64,000 nt of DNA, taken from the NCBI RefSeq assembly GCF_002215215.1, contig NZ_CP018632.1, forward strand, positions 5,700,501 to 5,764,500. The letters are read 5' to 3'. Positions 52,845 through 59,790 of this stretch are shown here, one piece after another. The notes under the pieces are model-generated. The model saw only the letters and a program-made list of their open reading frames with translations, did not search any database and was not told the origin of the DNA. The position numbers and the translations under genes are program-made. Origin of the DNA: Granulosicoccus antarcticus IMCC3135. Lineage in GTDB: Bacteria > Pseudomonadota > Gammaproteobacteria > Granulosicoccales > Granulosicoccaceae. The first letter of the stretch is position 1, and the number at the start of each line of letters is the position of its first letter.

Positions 52845-53813
52845 ATGAGCTTTCCTGCAGACAAAGTGCTGACAAACGGTTCGGACGAACCGCGCCCGGA
52901 TCCGAACGCCTCGGCATTCCTGACTGTGCCGCAGCTGGCCGAACTGCTTCATGTCAACGAGAAAAAGATCTACCAGTTAGCGGGGGTCGGTGAAATTCCC
53001 GGTACCAAAGTCACAGGCAAGTGGATTTTCCCTCGCCGTTTGATAGAAGACTGGTTACTCGAAAATAGTCACGGTGGCGTCATGCATGATCGCCTGCTGA
53101 TTAATGGCAGCGATGATCAGCTGGTGTACGGCCTGTGCAATAGAGCAGCACTTGACTGGCAGCAAAGTGCGCTTGTGAGCTACAGCCCGACGGGCACCAG
53201 ACACGGCTTGCGCATGCTGGATACCGGACGTGCCGATGCCTGCTTCATCAACTGGGGGGCCAGTGAAGCCAGCGCCCGTCGCCACATGGGCCTGTTACGT
53301 CGCTATCGCAACCATCAAAGCTGGGTCATCGTGCGCTGCCTGCAACGTGTTCAGGGCTTGATTATCACCCCATCGCTGGAACAAAGACTGGACATGTCTG
53401 CAAGCGATACGCTATCAAAGCTGATACTTGATCCGCAATTGCGATGGGCAGTACGGCAGGACGATTCAGGCAGCAAACGCCTGCTGGAGGACTGGTGCGC
53501 CATGGAAGGAAAATGCATCACTACCCTCCGCCTTTGCACCCCTTGTGATAGCGAGCGCAGCGCAGCAGCAGCCCTCAACCGGGGCGATGCGGATATCTGC
53601 TGCGGCGTCAAGAGCACAGCCCTCGACTTCGGTCTGTCTTTCCAGCCAATCGCCGACATATCGCTGGATCTGGTCATGAGCCGAAAGACATATTTTCGGA
53701 CACTGATGCAGGACTTCATCACACGCATGCAGGACACCGAAGCACATACCATCGCCAGCAAACTGGGTGGCTATACCATTCTGCCCTCAGCACAGCTGAT
53801 AACCATCGACTAA
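52845..53813 (+). CDS. Excisionase-type HTH regulator with periplasmic-binding-like domain
   Basis: The 322-residue protein starts with a MerR/excisionase-like winged helix (FLTVPQLAELLHVNEKKIYQLAGVGEIPGTKVTGKWIFPRRLIEDWL, about 24-72). The rest resembles a type-2 periplasmic-binding fold used as a ligand sensor (about 85-320; LVYGLCNRAALDWQQ at the start and RTLMQDFITRMQDTEAHTIASKLGGY at the end). Regulators of this layout occur with formate dehydrogenase or molybdenum genes and may sense molybdate or a related oxyanion; that ligand is inferred. The gene is directly downstream of fdhD, so it probably controls the divergent fdh operons. Confidence 0.82.
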   Translation: MSFPADKVLTNGSDEPRPDPNASAFLTVPQLAELLHVNEKKIYQLAGVGEIPGTKVTGKWIFPRRLIEDWLLENSHGGVMHDRLLINGSDDQLVYGLCNRAALDWQQSALVSYSPTGTRHGLRMLDTGRADACFINWGASEASARRHMGLLRRYRNHQSWVIVRCLQRVQGLIITPSLEQRLDMSASDTLSKLILDPQLRWAVRQDDSGSKRLLEDWCAMEGKCITTLRLCTPCDSERSAAAALNRGDADICCGVKSTALDFGLSFQPIADISLDLVMSRKTYFRTLMQDFITRMQDTEAHTIASKLGGYTILPSAQLITID

Positions 53814-53860: not shown

Positions 53861-56089
53861 TCATTGATTGACCGCTAATTGGGCGTTGACGGCGTGGTCA
53901 TGCAATTCAGCAAGTGCACCCGATCTACCCGATTTTGCAGTGGATTGCAGGGTTCGGTCATACATGCGCAGCACCTGCTCCTGTCGCAGCGTCAGTGCCG
54001 TCAGTTTCTCCGTAGAATCAATGCCCAGCTCGCGACGCATCTCCTGTCTTCGCAAGGCACTGCTCCTGTAGGCAATAAACGTATCCACCTTGCGTGGAGA
54101 ATCCAGCGTCGCATCTTTGGCATACAGTGTCGTGTAGCCAATGCACGGCAACTCGCCTGCTTCGATGTTCTGATGCAGTTTTTCGTCATCCAGCAAGCCG
54201 ACAAAGACACGTTCATCGAATTGCTCTTCGTTGACATTTCTATCGAAAAAGAGACTGATCAGTGTTTCCCGTTCGGTTGAGTCCAGCCCGAACTCATGAG
54301 CAAGGATGGCCAGATTCTGGGTAGCGTACATATCCTGATACATCAAGACGGTCTCCAGAATGGCGCAACCTGCCTGTAGCCGAACGGCATTGACATGATG
54401 AGGCCTGCTTGCGTATTCAGGGTCCGCACTGGTTTTGATCTCAATCAGCAAGCGTTCAACCAACGGCCTTACGATGGAGCCACGATCGCGCTCAGCCCAG
54501 TAGATCCGAGCACCACTGTGCCTCCAGTGTCCGGACATGAGTTCAGGATCACGGATGCCTTCCTCGATCGATATAACGGTATCGAGTAATTTGATGACAA
54601 TCCCGGCTAGCGTATAAGGGACTTCTGCTTCGGTCGCCTTGACGGTCATATCCGTAAAACGTCCGACATTGTATTGAGCCTGAGGCAACAACAGATGCGG
54701 TTGCTTCAAGGTCAGGTTTGCCTTGTTGGCACCGGCTGACAGCACGCTCGAATCGGTCAGCTCGGATACCATGGCAGCAATCGGGCCACCAAAGCGGAAT
54801 TGAATCTTGCGCAAGGAATGACCATAACCCGTGACCCGCATGGAGCCATCTTCCACCACATCGTGCAACATGGCTAAAGTCACGATCAGCGGCTCCAGTG
54901 CGCGACCCAGCACCCGCTCTGCAATCGCAGAAATTCGAAAGGCATGAGCCGCCATACTGCTCAGAGACTTGCGACGACCTTTTTCCAGAGAGCGCATCAT
55001 CTCCAGACTGGCAACATGGACCGCCTCGATGGAGTTGGGAGCTTCTGACACCGCAAAATATTCCATCACCGGCAAGTTGATATGGACTTCGTGTACCGCC
55101 TTGCCGCGTCGTCCGGACAAGCGCTCGCGTTTGGCAGGATCACGTAGCGCATCACGTACGGCCATCAGCAGCGTATTGCGCAAGGGCTCACGCAGTGCGT
55201 AATGATCCACACCCGGCAACTTGAATGCCTTGATGGTCAGCTTGTAGTGTTTTTCCATCGCCGGACGTTCAGGGAAGTCGGCGCTGCAATCGATGCCCGC
55301 AGCCTCCAGTTCCCGGCTCTGATCCCGGTCCATGAAACTGATGACCCTGTCGCCCGCTGCACGTGCAACCAACCGCAGGCGACTTGCCTGGATGGCAGCA
55401 ACCGCCGTCGCGATTTCCGGACTCGGCGGTTCTGGAATTTCCAGGCCCGCATCGACCGATTCGTTAAACAAAGCCAGATACTCAGCCAGAGTGATCACCA
55501 GCTTGCCAACGGTATCGCCAAACCAGGTAAAAACATAGGTGTCGTCCACGATCTCGTGATCGTGCGAAGAAAATGCACTGTAGCGGTGCGACTTGCCGTA
55601 GGAATCCTGCAGCATGGTAGCCACGATCAGATCGTGCGTCATGGTGCGCGTGCCGTTCCCGTGGCTGCCGTACAACCGCACGCCAAGCAGCATATTGGCC
55701 GCTAGCACTGCCTGGTGAATGATCGGCTCCAGCTTGGGAAGTCGATTGGAATTGATCATGCGGCGCGAACCCGCTATACGAATATCCAGAGTTTCAGGCT
55801 TGATGGTTTCGGGATCGATATCCTGCTTCGCAAACAACTCTGCCGCAAGCAAGTCGCGACCGCGTTGAGTCTCGAACAATCGCACCGGCAGGGAGGAAAG
55901 GGGGACAAGGTGCTCAACTTCCTTGGCGATCCATTCCCTGGACAAGGTACCGGCCAGCACACGTTCCATATCGGACGTGCCGGCCAGGACACCATAGGCC
56001 CTGACGAGTTTGACTAAATCAGTGAGCGGATAAGCACGCGCCACGTTATTGTATTTCCGAAAATGTTCTGGCTTGGTTAAGAATAGCAA
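53861..56089 (-). CDS. 742-residue protein with a RelA/SpoT-like HD hydrolase core
   Basis: I do not recognise the whole protein. Residues about 378-510 resemble the ppGpp-hydrolase domain of RelA/SpoT enzymes: His382, then LAMLHDVVEDGS with His409-Asp410 and Glu413-Asp414, RFGGPIAAMVSELTDSS (about 432-448), and IKLLDTVISIEEGI with Asp503. The N-terminal 370 residues and the C-terminal 230 are helical and of unknown type. No synthetase, TGS or ACT domain is evident. The start is TTG 56089, without a clear ribosome site. The 175 bases to the sensor kinase gene hold nothing recognisable. It may be a nucleotide hydrolase acting in signalling, by inference only. Confidence 0.65.
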   Translation of the reverse strand: MLFLTKPEHFRKYNNVARAYPLTDLVKLVRAYGVLAGTSDMERVLAGTLSREWIAKEVEHLVPLSSLPVRLFETQRGRDLLAAELFAKQDIDPETIKPETLDIRIAGSRRMINSNRLPKLEPIIHQAVLAANMLLGVRLYGSHGNGTRTMTHDLIVATMLQDSYGKSHRYSAFSSHDHEIVDDTYVFTWFGDTVGKLVITLAEYLALFNESVDAGLEIPEPPSPEIATAVAAIQASRLRLVARAAGDRVISFMDRDQSRELEAAGIDCSADFPERPAMEKHYKLTIKAFKLPGVDHYALREPLRNTLLMAVRDALRDPAKRERLSGRRGKAVHEVHINLPVMEYFAVSEAPNSIEAVHVASLEMMRSLEKGRRKSLSSMAAHAFRISAIAERVLGRALEPLIVTLAMLHDVVEDGSMRVTGYGHSLRKIQFRFGGPIAAMVSELTDSSVLSAGANKANLTLKQPHLLLPQAQYNVGRFTDMTVKATEAEVPYTLAGIVIKLLDTVISIEEGIRDPELMSGHWRHSGARIYWAERDRGSIVRPLVERLLIEIKTSADPEYASRPHHVNAVRLQAGCAILETVLMYQDMYATQNLAILAHEFGLDSTERETLISLFFDRNVNEEQFDERVFVGLLDDEKLHQNIEAGELPCIGYTTLYAKDATLDSPRKVDTFIAYRSSALRRQEMRRELGIDSTEKLTALTLRQEQVLRMYDRTLQSTAKSGRSGALAELHDHAVNAQLAVNQ

Positions 56090-56264: not shown

Positions 56265-58373
56265 TTAAGTCACATTGCCAACCCCTGGCAGTACTAGTTC
56301 GAACGCACTTCCTGCGCCAAGTTCCGAACGAACCTGAATATCGCCTCCAAAGCGTCTTACAATGCCATAACTGACCGACAGACCCAAGCCCGTTCCGCTG
56401 GCTTTTCCGCTAGTAAAGAAAGGATCGAACACCCGTGGCAAATCTGCAGGACTGATACCACACCCCGAGTCTCTGACTTCGATACTGACAAGATCGGCCG
56501 CCGCGTCGCAAGTGTGTATTGATATCTGTCCGCCCTCGCCTATTGCCTGAATGGCATTGCCAAACAGATTGACCAGAACCTGTTGCAATTCCTGCCGGTC
56601 AATCATTGCTGCCAGGCTTGCACGATGATCTTGCGTCACGATGATGCGACGGCCATCCAGCTCATGCGCCAGAACCGTTAATGAGTCTTCCACAATCGAG
56701 GGCAATCCAACCGGCACCCGCTTGGGTTGATCAGGCACCGGTTGATATTCATCCGACAGAGCCGTGTGTGGCTGATCAGCGCGAGAATACTGCAGCAGAC
56801 GGTCGGTAATCGAACGAATACGAAACACCTGCTCGAAAATGAGATCAATCTCGGTTTGTACCTGCTCGCACCCCTCTCCCAGATCAGCGACCAGGACATC
56901 CATGTTGCCCAGGATAACGGCTGTCGGATTATTGATTTCATGAGCGACACCCGCTGTTAGTTCACCCAGAGCCGCAAGCTTTTCGGCATTGGCCAGCTGC
57001 AAGCGGGTTTGCTGCAACAGATCAATGGAGTTCTGCAACTTCTTGTTCTGCCGTTCCAGTTCTGCGGTACGGTGCTGGACCTTGTCTTCCAGCATGGCGG
57101 CATCTTGTTCAATCTGCTGACGGTTCGAGTCCAGCGCATCCAGCATCGAGTCAAACTGGGTGGCCAGCTCGCCAATTTCACTCCCCTGCGAGATGCGTCC
57201 AATACGCCGATGCTCCCCGGCTGCCGTTGCCCGCACAACCGACGTCATGGTTTCAATCGGAGTAAAGATACTACGGGCCCCCTGGATAGCAGCGACTCCA
57301 GCCAGCAGACTGCCAGCAATCACGAGCACTGAGAGCACCGCAATCGCAGTCAGCAATTCGGATCGTAACGGGGCTTCCAGATAGCCGGCATAGAGCATTC
57401 CCACCCGTTGAGCACTGACATCCAGGATTGGCCGGTAGGCAGATATATACCAGTCGTTGACGACGAAGGCTCGATCCACCCATTGTTCACCGCGCGTCAG
57501 CACAGCATCGAAAACCTCGCGTGAAACCCGCGTCCCCAGGGCGCGGGTATCATCCATGGAAGGTACATTGGTACTTATCCTGACATCATCGATAAACAGC
57601 GTCACGGTACCCCGACTACCCCGCATCAGACTGCCAGGACCATAGACAAGGTCTCGTATTCTGTCGACGAAATCGAAGTTGCGATTAAGTAGTATTCCGC
57701 CTTCGAGCACTGCAATTCGCCGCCCTTGCATATCCACCACACGTTGCAGCGTTCGAATAAGCATCGCACGCTCTTCTTCCACCCGGCGGGTCGGCACTGC
57801 TCTGGCGGTCGGCACCAGTGGCAGCACGATGCGCGAGGCATCCAGGCCGGATACAAGCTGCCAGTCTTCGGGCTGATACACCTCTATACCAACAACGCCC
57901 GCTGGCAACTCGCTGGCGCTCGCAGATGACAGAATCTGCTCACTCGTAGGGCTCTGATGCAACCAAGCCTCTGACCAGCCAGTCGGTGTGAGAAGCTGGC
58001 GTCCATCCTCGGACCAGGCTCGCAGGAAGTCGAAACCCGCCTGTTCTTGCTGCTGTTCCAACAGCGCTATGACATCCGGAGCAGAACCTGTCGCCAGCGT
58101 ATTGGCCAGCACGGCACTGTTTGCCAGGGATAACAGTTCACGCTTTGCATCTTCCTGCAGGCGTTCGAAATTTTCAGCGGACACCTGCAGGTCGGCATGC
58201 ACTCTGGCAAACAGCTGCTCGTAGGTGTAGTTGCTGGACCACTTGGTCGCCAGCAAGATAACCGTGCCACATAGCAGCAGCAGTGGTACCAGTACCAGAG
58301 CCAACAGGCGATATCGCAGCGCATAGAAACGCGGAGTTCTGGAAAAACGCAATATGGCTGCCACCCAGCTCAT
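56265..58373 (-). CDS. Sensor histidine kinase, NtrB/DctB type
   Basis: The 702-residue protein begins at ATG 58373, with AGGAAAA 10 bases upstream. Two helices (about 20-40 and 335-360) flank a periplasmic sensor domain of about 290 residues (double-Cache-like). A HAMP segment follows (FTPIETMTSVVRATAAGEHRR), then a coiled coil, the phosphoacceptor motif GELTAGVAHEINNPTAVI, and the ATP-binding domain with NLFGNAIQAIGEGG, DSGCGIS, FDPFFTSGKASGTGLGLSVS. No receiver is fused. It lies seven bases downstream of the response regulator gene, its likely partner. The ligand is not evident. Confidence 0.92.
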   Translation of the reverse strand: MSWVAAILRFSRTPRFYALRYRLLALVLVPLLLLCGTVILLATKWSSNYTYEQLFARVHADLQVSAENFERLQEDAKRELLSLANSAVLANTLATGSAPDVIALLEQQQEQAGFDFLRAWSEDGRQLLTPTGWSEAWLHQSPTSEQILSSASASELPAGVVGIEVYQPEDWQLVSGLDASRIVLPLVPTARAVPTRRVEEERAMLIRTLQRVVDMQGRRIAVLEGGILLNRNFDFVDRIRDLVYGPGSLMRGSRGTVTLFIDDVRISTNVPSMDDTRALGTRVSREVFDAVLTRGEQWVDRAFVVNDWYISAYRPILDVSAQRVGMLYAGYLEAPLRSELLTAIAVLSVLVIAGSLLAGVAAIQGARSIFTPIETMTSVVRATAAGEHRRIGRISQGSEIGELATQFDSMLDALDSNRQQIEQDAAMLEDKVQHRTAELERQNKKLQNSIDLLQQTRLQLANAEKLAALGELTAGVAHEINNPTAVILGNMDVLVADLGEGCEQVQTEIDLIFEQVFRIRSITDRLLQYSRADQPHTALSDEYQPVPDQPKRVPVGLPSIVEDSLTVLAHELDGRRIIVTQDHRASLAAMIDRQELQQVLVNLFGNAIQAIGEGGQISIHTCDAAADLVSIEVRDSGCGISPADLPRVFDPFFTSGKASGTGLGLSVSYGIVRRFGGDIQVRSELGAGSAFELVLPGVGNVT

Positions 58374-58380
58374 CAAAACG

Positions 58381-59790
58381 CTATTTTCCTGTTGCGCCAT
58401 ACCAGAGCGCCTGTTTGCGCTCCAGGGTCTTGCGCGAGACACCCAGCCGACGAGCTGCTGCCGACTTGTTATTGTCGAACGATGCCAGCACCGCTTCAAT
58501 ATGGGCTCGCTCAACCTGCTCCAGACTCCACTCCAATGAGTAACCGGGCCCCACATCAGCAGACTCCTGAAGCGTCTTGTTCAAACTCTCCAATGGCAGT
58601 TCACCCAACAGTAAAGTACGCTCGACCAGGTTCCTTAGCTCGCGCACATTACCAGGCCAGTGGTATGCAAATAATTGCTCCCAATCGGTATGCAACAACT
58701 GGACAGGTGCCAGGCGCAGCTCAGAGGCCAGCTGCTCCATGAAGTGCTGAACCAATAGCTCTATATCACGACCACGCTCCCGCAAAGGCGGCACATCCAG
58801 CGGCATCGCATTGAGGCGATAGAAAAGATCGGTACGAAACGCACCACTTGCACCGAGTTCATCCAGGTCGCATGAAGTCGCCGCAATGATCCGTACATCC
58901 ACAGGAAACTCCCGCGCACTGCCAACAGGACGGATGACCCCTCGTTCCAGCACACCCAGCATCTTGGCCTGCACCGGTTCGGGCAAACGCCCAATTTCAT
59001 CAAGAAACAGAGTTCCCTTGTCAGCATGGGCAATCAGTCCATCACGCGTCTGCTCGGCACCGGCAAAGGCTCCCTTGATATGACCGAACAACTCGCTATC
59101 AATGCGCTCTTCATTCAGAGTTCCGCAGTTCAGAGAAATGAAGGCACCACTGCGGCGGCTGAGCTGATGCAGTGACTTGGCAACCAGGGCTTTACCAACA
59201 CCGGTCTCACCCCGGATTAGTACGCTCGTCCGAGTTGTGGCGACCCGTTGTACCAGCGCGAAGACCTTACGCATGGCGGGACTCTCCCCGACCACGCCTT
59301 CATCATGCTGCATCTGCTCCACCTGCAGACGTAACAACGAGTTTTCACGCAGAATCTGTCGCCGCATCAAGGTGCGACGCATCGACAACAGAATCTGCTC
59401 AGTGCGAAAGGGCTTCATGATGAAATCATCAGCACCGTTTCTCAACGCTGCAATAGCCATATCCAGATCGGCAAAGGCAGTCATATAGATGACGTGTGTT
59501 CTGACACCTCGTTCACGCAACTTTTCCATCCATTCCAACCCGGACAATCCGGGTAGACGAATATCCACCATCAGCAAATCAAAGTGATAGCGCAGACGCA
59601 AGGCCTCGGCCTCCTCCGCGCTGCCAGCTACTTCAAGCAGGGCGCAGCGATTTTCAAGCGAGCGCTTCAGAAAATTGCGCATGCCAGGCTCATCATCGAC
59701 CACCAGAATCGCCGCCGAACGCAGCAGACGATTGAATTCCAGCTCAACCGTACCCTCAGCTTTTTGCCCATCGTGCAGCGGCATGATCAT
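58381..59790 (-). CDS. Sigma-54-dependent response regulator (NtrC family) with GAFAGA loop
   Basis: The 469-residue protein has a receiver (Asp76 in LLMVDIRLPGLSG, Lys126). A AAA+ domain carries Walker A GETGVGK (194-200), Walker B TLFLDEIGR, and the sigma-54 contact loop as GAFAGA at 240-245 instead of GAFTGA. A C-terminal Fis-type helix-turn-helix (about 430-458, SAAARRLGVSRKTLERK) completes it. The Thr of GAFTGA contacts sigma-54, and its replacement by Ala usually weakens activation, so the protein may act differently. The ATG overlaps the nth stop by four bases and the kinase follows, so nth, regulator and kinase form an operon. Confidence 0.92.
   Translation of the reverse strand: MIMPLHDGQKAEGTVELEFNRLLRSAAILVVDDEPGMRNFLKRSLENRCALLEVAGSAEEAEALRLRYHFDLLMVDIRLPGLSGLEWMEKLRERGVRTHVIYMTAFADLDMAIAALRNGADDFIMKPFRTEQILLSMRRTLMRRQILRENSLLRLQVEQMQHDEGVVGESPAMRKVFALVQRVATTRTSVLIRGETGVGKALVAKSLHQLSRRSGAFISLNCGTLNEERIDSELFGHIKGAFAGAEQTRDGLIAHADKGTLFLDEIGRLPEPVQAKMLGVLERGVIRPVGSAREFPVDVRIIAATSCDLDELGASGAFRTDLFYRLNAMPLDVPPLRERGRDIELLVQHFMEQLASELRLAPVQLLHTDWEQLFAYHWPGNVRELRNLVERTLLLGELPLESLNKTLQESADVGPGYSLEWSLEQVERAHIEAVLASFDNNKSAAARRLGVSRKTLERKQALWYGATGK

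Follow-up and report, generated by a model that had tools for sequence, protein, structure and literature searches.

A gene of Granulosicoccus antarcticus IMCC3135, located on the minus strand of the window (the whole stretch of 64,000 nucleotides which was analyzed), is rather likely to encode a protein of the RelA/SpoT (RSH) superfamily with two domains, a dead N-terminal hydrolase and an intact C-terminal one, followed by a helical tail and without a synthetase. In such a protein the C-terminal domain would remove the 3′-pyrophosphate of (p)ppGpp or of a close relative and the N-terminal domain would regulate or position it. The signature, homology, predicted folds and lineage-wide conservation were computed; the activity, the substrate and the regulatory role of the N-terminal domain are what we infer. 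The original prediction for this gene holds in its core, an RSH-type hydrolase domain without synthetase, and gives way on the point that the flanking sequence is unfamiliar throughout; a reading of the neighbouring two-component system as a meaningful partner was not supported either.

The frame 53861-56089 (-) is present and open throughout as predicted, with 742 codons counted from a TTG. Homologues can be aligned from about residue 16 of this frame, where GTG is found in 25 of 33 full-length homologous frames, and the GTG at 56042-56044 is therefore the likelier start, giving a gene of 53861..56044 (-) and a protein of 727 amino acids. All residue numbers given here belong to this protein and equal those of the original prediction minus 15. 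Against the nearest orthologue (L002) the differences at codon positions 1, 2 and 3 were 0.139, 0.081 and 0.503; the third position being the most variable, the reading frame is constrained at the protein level. A search for promoter-like sites near the gene gave none, and the repeats near it are short two-copy matches.

The C-terminal region (residues 318-584; 54293..55093 (-)) carries an intact hydrolase signature and, judged by profile-profile comparison and the predicted model, is a divergent hydrolase domain of the RSH superfamily. Conservation was taken from an alignment of 26 rows including the window protein, the other rows being 41-85% identical. The signature residues were all found where they had been claimed, namely His367 (formerly 382; 54944..54946 (-)) as first metal ligand, HDVVED at 394-399 (formerly 409-414; 54848..54865 (-)) with the metal His-Asp and the Glu-Asp pair, RFG at 417-419 (formerly 432-434; 54788..54796 (-)) and, in the segment Lys485..Asp488 (54581..54592 (-)), the last metal ligand Asp488 (formerly 503). 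The metal ligands thus come in the order His, His-Asp, Asp. Arg358, Lys359, His367, His394, Asp395, Glu398, Asp399 and Asp488 are invariant in 26/26 rows, so that the Arg before the first His and the Glu-Asp pair after the HD are both kept; RFG is present in every row, HDVVED varies only between V and I at 396, and Ser360 is kept in at least 90% of rows.

The spacing from Arg358 to the His ligand is nine residues, the same as in RelSeq, and Arg358-Lys359-Ser360 (54965..54973 (-)) occupies the places of RelSeq Arg44-Lys45-Ser46, which contact the guanine side of pppGpp according to the accessible part of PMC13299517. The place of Rel Asn148, which in the same part of that source touches the base and the 3′-phosphate, is taken by Ser492. 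This replacement had been predicted correctly: the residue at Asp+4 is Ser in 23 rows and Thr in 3, whereas Asn stands there in 37 of 38 RSH rows. The longer spacing was also confirmed, because 93 residues separate the HD Asp from the last Asp against 66 in RelSeq (Asp78 and Asp144, from the accessible part of PMC13299517), which is a difference of 27. Most of the extra length lies in residues 432-475 (54620..54751 (-)), which are poorly conserved (3 of 44 invariant).

This signature is more than chance, because HDxxED is found only once when all window frames of at least 150 amino acids (26,809 residues) are counted, because all eight signature residues are invariant (P 5e-6, given 61 invariant among 267 columns) and because the frame is constrained. 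In the Pfam search HD_4 (PF13328) was the sole family up to E 1, with E 5e-6 and 26.7-26.8 bits, just under the cut-off of 27.2; it was matched by 16 of the 26 family rows at E up to 0.01 and reached 40.2 bits in the relative L068. No RelA_SpoT, TGS or ACT match was obtained up to E 1, in agreement with the predicted lack of these domains. NCBIfam and PADLOC gave no match for the window protein, PHROGs gave one weak match (phrog_990, E 0.015) and phmmer against PDB gave only unrelated proteins as weak leads (E 0.015-1.1). A profile search of PDB returned, weakly (E 0.021-0.27), the HDc protein 7qoe (called a small alarmone hydrolase), one ACT-domain RSH and two MESH1 entries.

Profile-profile comparison (hhalign) of residues 318-590 of the 26-row alignment with 38 RSH hydrolase domains gave E 4.7e-9 and a score of 64.0, and column shuffles of the profile scored at most 30.7 in 60; the hhalign E-values belong to a one-to-one comparison with these 38 domains and not to a database search. 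Arg358 was mapped on the RSH Arg (37/37), His367 on the first His (38/38), His394-Asp395 on HD, Glu398-Asp399 on ED, Phe418-Gly419 on FG, and Lys485 with Asp488 on the KLAD motif.

A model of residues 318-584 was built from 22 sequences (mean pLDDT 62.0, pTM 0.66), the five models ranging from pLDDT 62.0 down to 38.1. By VIA-align the closest structure to this low-confidence model was human MESH1 3nr1 (Z 13.1, 165 of 178 residues, rmsd 3.0). RSH hydrolase structures filled 19 of the first 20 rows (Z 7.3-13.1), the sole other row being the HD protein 2qgs at rank 16, and phosphodiesterases came after the RSH rows with Z 7.0 and below. Foldseek alone gave this model no match within E 0.001; P. 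aeruginosa SAH came first in its list, with E 0.11. The predicted helix layout, and the match of the whole domain to MESH1, fit a shared metal site, in a model of mean pLDDT 62. Two of the checks proposed with the original prediction, a structure prediction and a profile search against HD families, place the domain with RSH hydrolases and not with the other HD families listed.

The N-terminal half, which had been described as unfamiliar, appears as a second RSH hydrolase fold in degenerate form. In the full-length model (mean pLDDT 75.1, pTM 0.75) the best structural matches cover residues 3-307 (55124..56038 (-)) and not the HDVVED half. The top match was P. aeruginosa SAH 6yvc (Z 11.2, 168 residues, rmsd 2.9), with SpoT 7qpr (Z 11.0), MESH1 3nr1 (10.8), Rel 8acu (10.2) and 6s2v (8.7) also found; rows 1-7 were all RSH hydrolases (Z 8.7-11.2) and the best unrelated row had Z 7.8. 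Foldseek gave no match for the full-length model at E up to 0.001 either; its searches covered PDB and BFVD. Unrelated helical models can reach Z 13-14 in VIA-align, and sequence support was therefore needed for this fold. Residues 100-312 matched the RSH profile with a profile-profile E of 1.2e-6 and a score of 47.6, where 60 shuffles did not exceed 20.0, and positions 110-260 of the family profile matched L078 at i-E 2.5e-6, which is a genuine long RSH having HD_4, RelA_SpoT and TGS by Pfam.

Three segments of this domain stand at the places of RSH motifs. Residues 98-111 (55712..55753 (-)) correspond in position to the Rel RKSGEPYIxH motif; they lack a conserved His, yet are highly conserved. 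Residues 145-151 (LQDSYGK; 55592..55612 (-)) stand for LHDVIED, the HD pair falling on Gln146-Asp147 (Gln in 16 rows, His in 7, Arg in 3; Asp in 15/26) and the lost Glu-Asp pair on Gly150-Lys151, which are mostly Gly-Lys in the hhalign mapping. Residues 223-233 (LRLxARAAGD(R); 55346..55378 (-)) stand for IKLADRLHNM, with the last metal Asp replaced by Ala227 and Asn148 by Gly231, each in 26/26 rows. The HD pair is retained in a few rows (L041, L042, L044), so the decay is not uniform. Despite this, the domain is read as an inactive RSH hydrolase (pseudo-hydrolase), because the last Asp and the Glu-Asp pair are lost.

The segments 98-111 and 223-233 (first and fifth RSH motifs), which were picked after the alignment had been inspected, have 14 of 25 columns invariant against 50 of 312 across the N-terminal half (P 1.6e-6). 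A first alignment of this domain with a single SpoT had set His137 on the first metal His; it was dropped for the fuller RSH profile, which is preferred because its placing of LQD on LHD fits the predicted helices 107-129 and 137-148. In the fuller profile Gln111 takes the position of the first His, with His110 one column away, and neither is conserved.

The linker between the two domains is conserved. Direct comparison of the N-terminal with the C-terminal half was not significant (E 0.087 and 0.098), although both halves match RSH domains; the protein may have originated by internal duplication or by fusion. The tail (residues 585-727; 53864..54292 (-)) has about 140 amino acids, is predicted to be mostly helical and is the least conserved part, and no homology was found for it. 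Segments 1-100 and 585-705 gave no match with the RSH profile (E 0.098 and 0.27). FANCI/FANCD2 and other helical proteins, matched with Z up to 7.8 over residues 314-697, were set aside as generic helix packing.

We see this gene as a near-universal, free-standing core gene of the order. It is present in 46 of 48 genomes of the order (the two misses are 80% and 92% complete), in 35 of 36 family genomes sampled and in 4/4 genomes of one other small order (that of G086), and in 0/21 other genomes of the class. Full-length matches occur in 7 of 369 genomes of the class, and another 27 have only a short one, which lies around the HD signature except in one genome, where it covers the N-terminal part. 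The genome of the window itself (7,783,862 bases, one contig) is the only one to pass E 1e-8 in 398 genomes of the phylum. Of 22 loci with named relatives, 21 belong to Granulosicoccus or Granulosicoccaceae, and the remaining one is a weak Myxococcota match to the HD stretch. Plasmids searched by tblastn gave no match to the gene and viral contigs no confirmed one; with these results and no PADLOC hit, a toxin-antitoxin or defence reading was rejected.

RelA_SpoT and HD_4 also occur together in two long proteins of the host genome, one with all hydrolase residues kept (L057, SpoT-type) and one in which they are lost (L058, RelA-type). A third RelA_SpoT synthetase of the host genome, of 375 amino acids, is found at L059:1297-2424 and adjoins a pyridoxal-dependent decarboxylase. 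RelA_SpoT matches occur in 48/48 genomes of the order and three such matches in only 6/48; the extra synthetase therefore does not explain the gene. In other gammaproteobacteria N-terminal HD_4 proteins with the motif RRKY..QPY..HL ... AWLHDVVEDT were observed (L070:478-2766, L071:1402-2769, L072:1342-2148, L073:1357-2784, L074:1315-2814 and L075:505-1917), and in some of them weak CBS-like and HEPN (Swt1)-like matches come after HD_4; these form another RSH-like hydrolase family without synthetase.

The genes near the hydrolase gene in the window are Nth, a sensor kinase, a sigma-54 regulator, an HTH-PBP protein and FdhD. The two-component system had been noted as a neighbour; as a conserved partner it was rejected when 20 loci (L002-L020, L022) were compared: a kinase or regulator match is found in 11, Nth but neither kinase nor regulator in 8, and in one (L009) there is hardly any upstream DNA; matches to the kinase or regulator below 40% identity were excluded from the count. 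The surroundings differ in more distant relatives: L054 has 4PPT and leucyl-tRNA synthetase nearby, L083 and L085 have an HTH-shikimate kinase protein, and L056 has a LuxR-type regulator and patatin. We see no conserved partner gene for the hydrolase. The HTH_17-PBP gene adjoins the hydrolase gene in many, not all, relatives; in the window it lies at 52845-53813 (+) beside FdhD, and its product is possibly a molybdenum/formate-type regulator. As listed, the frame of the sensor kinase (56265-58556) and that of the sigma-54 response regulator (58381-59790), which together span 56265-59790 (-), share 176 bases, and the true start of the kinase is therefore probably further downstream. In one relative, at L012:10358-17965, a frame of 2535 amino acids with DUF4347, cadherin-like and bacterial Ig repeats lies directly downstream of the hydrolase gene.

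The most likely mechanism is that the C-terminal domain would bind Mn2+ through His367, His394, Asp395 and Asp488 and would cut the 3′-pyrophosphate off (p)ppGpp or a close relative; Glu398-Asp399 would be the catalytic pair, and Arg358-Lys359-Ser360 would lie at the nucleotide base. The N-terminal domain, which retains the fold and a conserved pocket without a metal site, would most likely regulate or position the active domain; the nearest precedent is the pseudo-hydrolase domain of RelA, which controls its synthetase, as shown in E. coli RelA in the accessible part of PMC8012599. A more tentative extension, which we hold at rather low probability, is that the dead domain may be a sensor of alarmones or related nucleotides, binding without cutting and switching the C-terminal hydrolase on or off, so that the protein would be a self-gated [hH] counterpart of RelA.

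Several results stand against the main reading, namely the change of Asn148 to Ser/Thr and the 27 extra residues before the last Asp, the HD_4 score just under the cut-off, the pLDDT of 62 of the C-domain model and the lack of a significant Foldseek match for either model. To these may be added that the two domains have no significant mutual match (E 0.098), that the HD pair persists in some N-terminal domains and that the host already has an intact SpoT-type hydrolase. The main rival reading, which is possible but clearly less probable, draws on some of the same facts: the C-terminal domain would be catalytic, but on NADPH, PAPS or another 3′-phosphorylated nucleotide and not mainly on a guanosine alarmone. 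The replaced Asn148, the longer loop before the last Asp and the SpoT-type gene would suit such a substrate, as would the nearest predicted fold, MESH1, whose structures include NADPH and PAPS complexes by title (5vxa, 9chy); in the accessible part of PMC9765508, XccSAH hydrolyses alarmones and NADPH, and MESH1 acts on NADPH. The places of RelSeq Arg44-Lys45-Ser46 argue for an alarmone instead, as they keep Arg and Lys throughout and Ser in nearly every row (at least 90%).

A reading in which both domains lack significant enzyme activity in the cell, and the protein senses a nucleotide as a binding or scaffold protein, is considered unlikely. The change of Asn to Ser, the long loop insertion, one degenerate domain and the strong conservation of its pocket segments would fit this, but the metal and Glu-Asp residues of the C-terminal domain are invariant in 26/26 rows, which binding alone would not obviously need. 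Very improbable is an HD domain from another family (dGTPase, HD-GYP, cyclic-nucleotide phosphodiesterase or YedJ-like) with a convergent Rel-like motif: phosphodiesterase, dGTPase and YedJ-like structures do appear in the C-domain list at Z about 5-8.4, but they rank below the 19 RSH rows, save 2qgs, while HD_4 is the only Pfam family and the PDB profile search gave only RSH-related proteins, weakly.

Among known systems, MESH1 (HDDC3) and the bacterial SAH proteins (P. aeruginosa 6yvc, C. glutamicum RelH 7qod) resemble the window protein in having a hydrolase domain without synthetase. They are the nearest predicted folds for both halves, and their metal ligands, Glu-Asp pair and Arg-Lys are also present in its C-terminal domain. 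Their solved chains have 157-193 residues and one domain, whereas the window protein has 727 residues with two RSH hydrolase folds and a tail, so it is not a single-domain small alarmone hydrolase; its C-terminal domain also differs from theirs by Ser/Thr for Asn at Asp+4 and by about 27 extra residues before the last Asp. With the long RSHs SpoT/Rel ([HS] in the notation of the accessible part of PMC3153485) it shares a hydrolase signature co-linear over the whole motif series. These have synthetase, TGS and ACT domains, which the window protein lacks, and unlike in SpoT/Rel its intact hydrolase domain sits C-terminal of a dead copy. As in gammaproteobacterial RelA ([hS]), an inactive RSH hydrolase domain stands N-terminal of an active catalytic domain; the partner is a synthetase in RelA and a hydrolase here, which would make the protein [hH] and sets it apart from the RelA type. 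The degenerate residues also differ, being Gly-Thr, Ala-Ala and Tyr in the host RelA against Gln-Asp, Gly-Lys and Ala in the N-terminal domain of the window protein.

In the RSH classification, as given in the accessible part of PMC3153485, hydrolases are found in long RSHs or small single-domain proteins and a dead hydrolase precedes a synthetase; no group with two hydrolase domains is described in that part. No report of a protein with two RSH hydrolase domains was found in the literature covered, mostly freely readable papers, nor anything on Granulosicoccus with an HD domain or with the stringent response. From the alignments and predicted models, this protein appears to carry two copies of the RSH hydrolase domain, one intact and one degenerate.

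If this is true, control by a pseudo-hydrolase would have arisen twice, here acting on the breakdown of alarmones instead of their synthesis. The pairing of a dead and an intact hydrolase is near-universal in a bacterial order, beside normal SpoT- and RelA-type genes, and would offer a natural system for asking what dead RSH hydrolase domains sense. A possible new mode of ppGpp control thereby becomes testable, and if the substrate differs (NADPH, PAPS or ppApp), the range of RSH enzymes would be widened instead.
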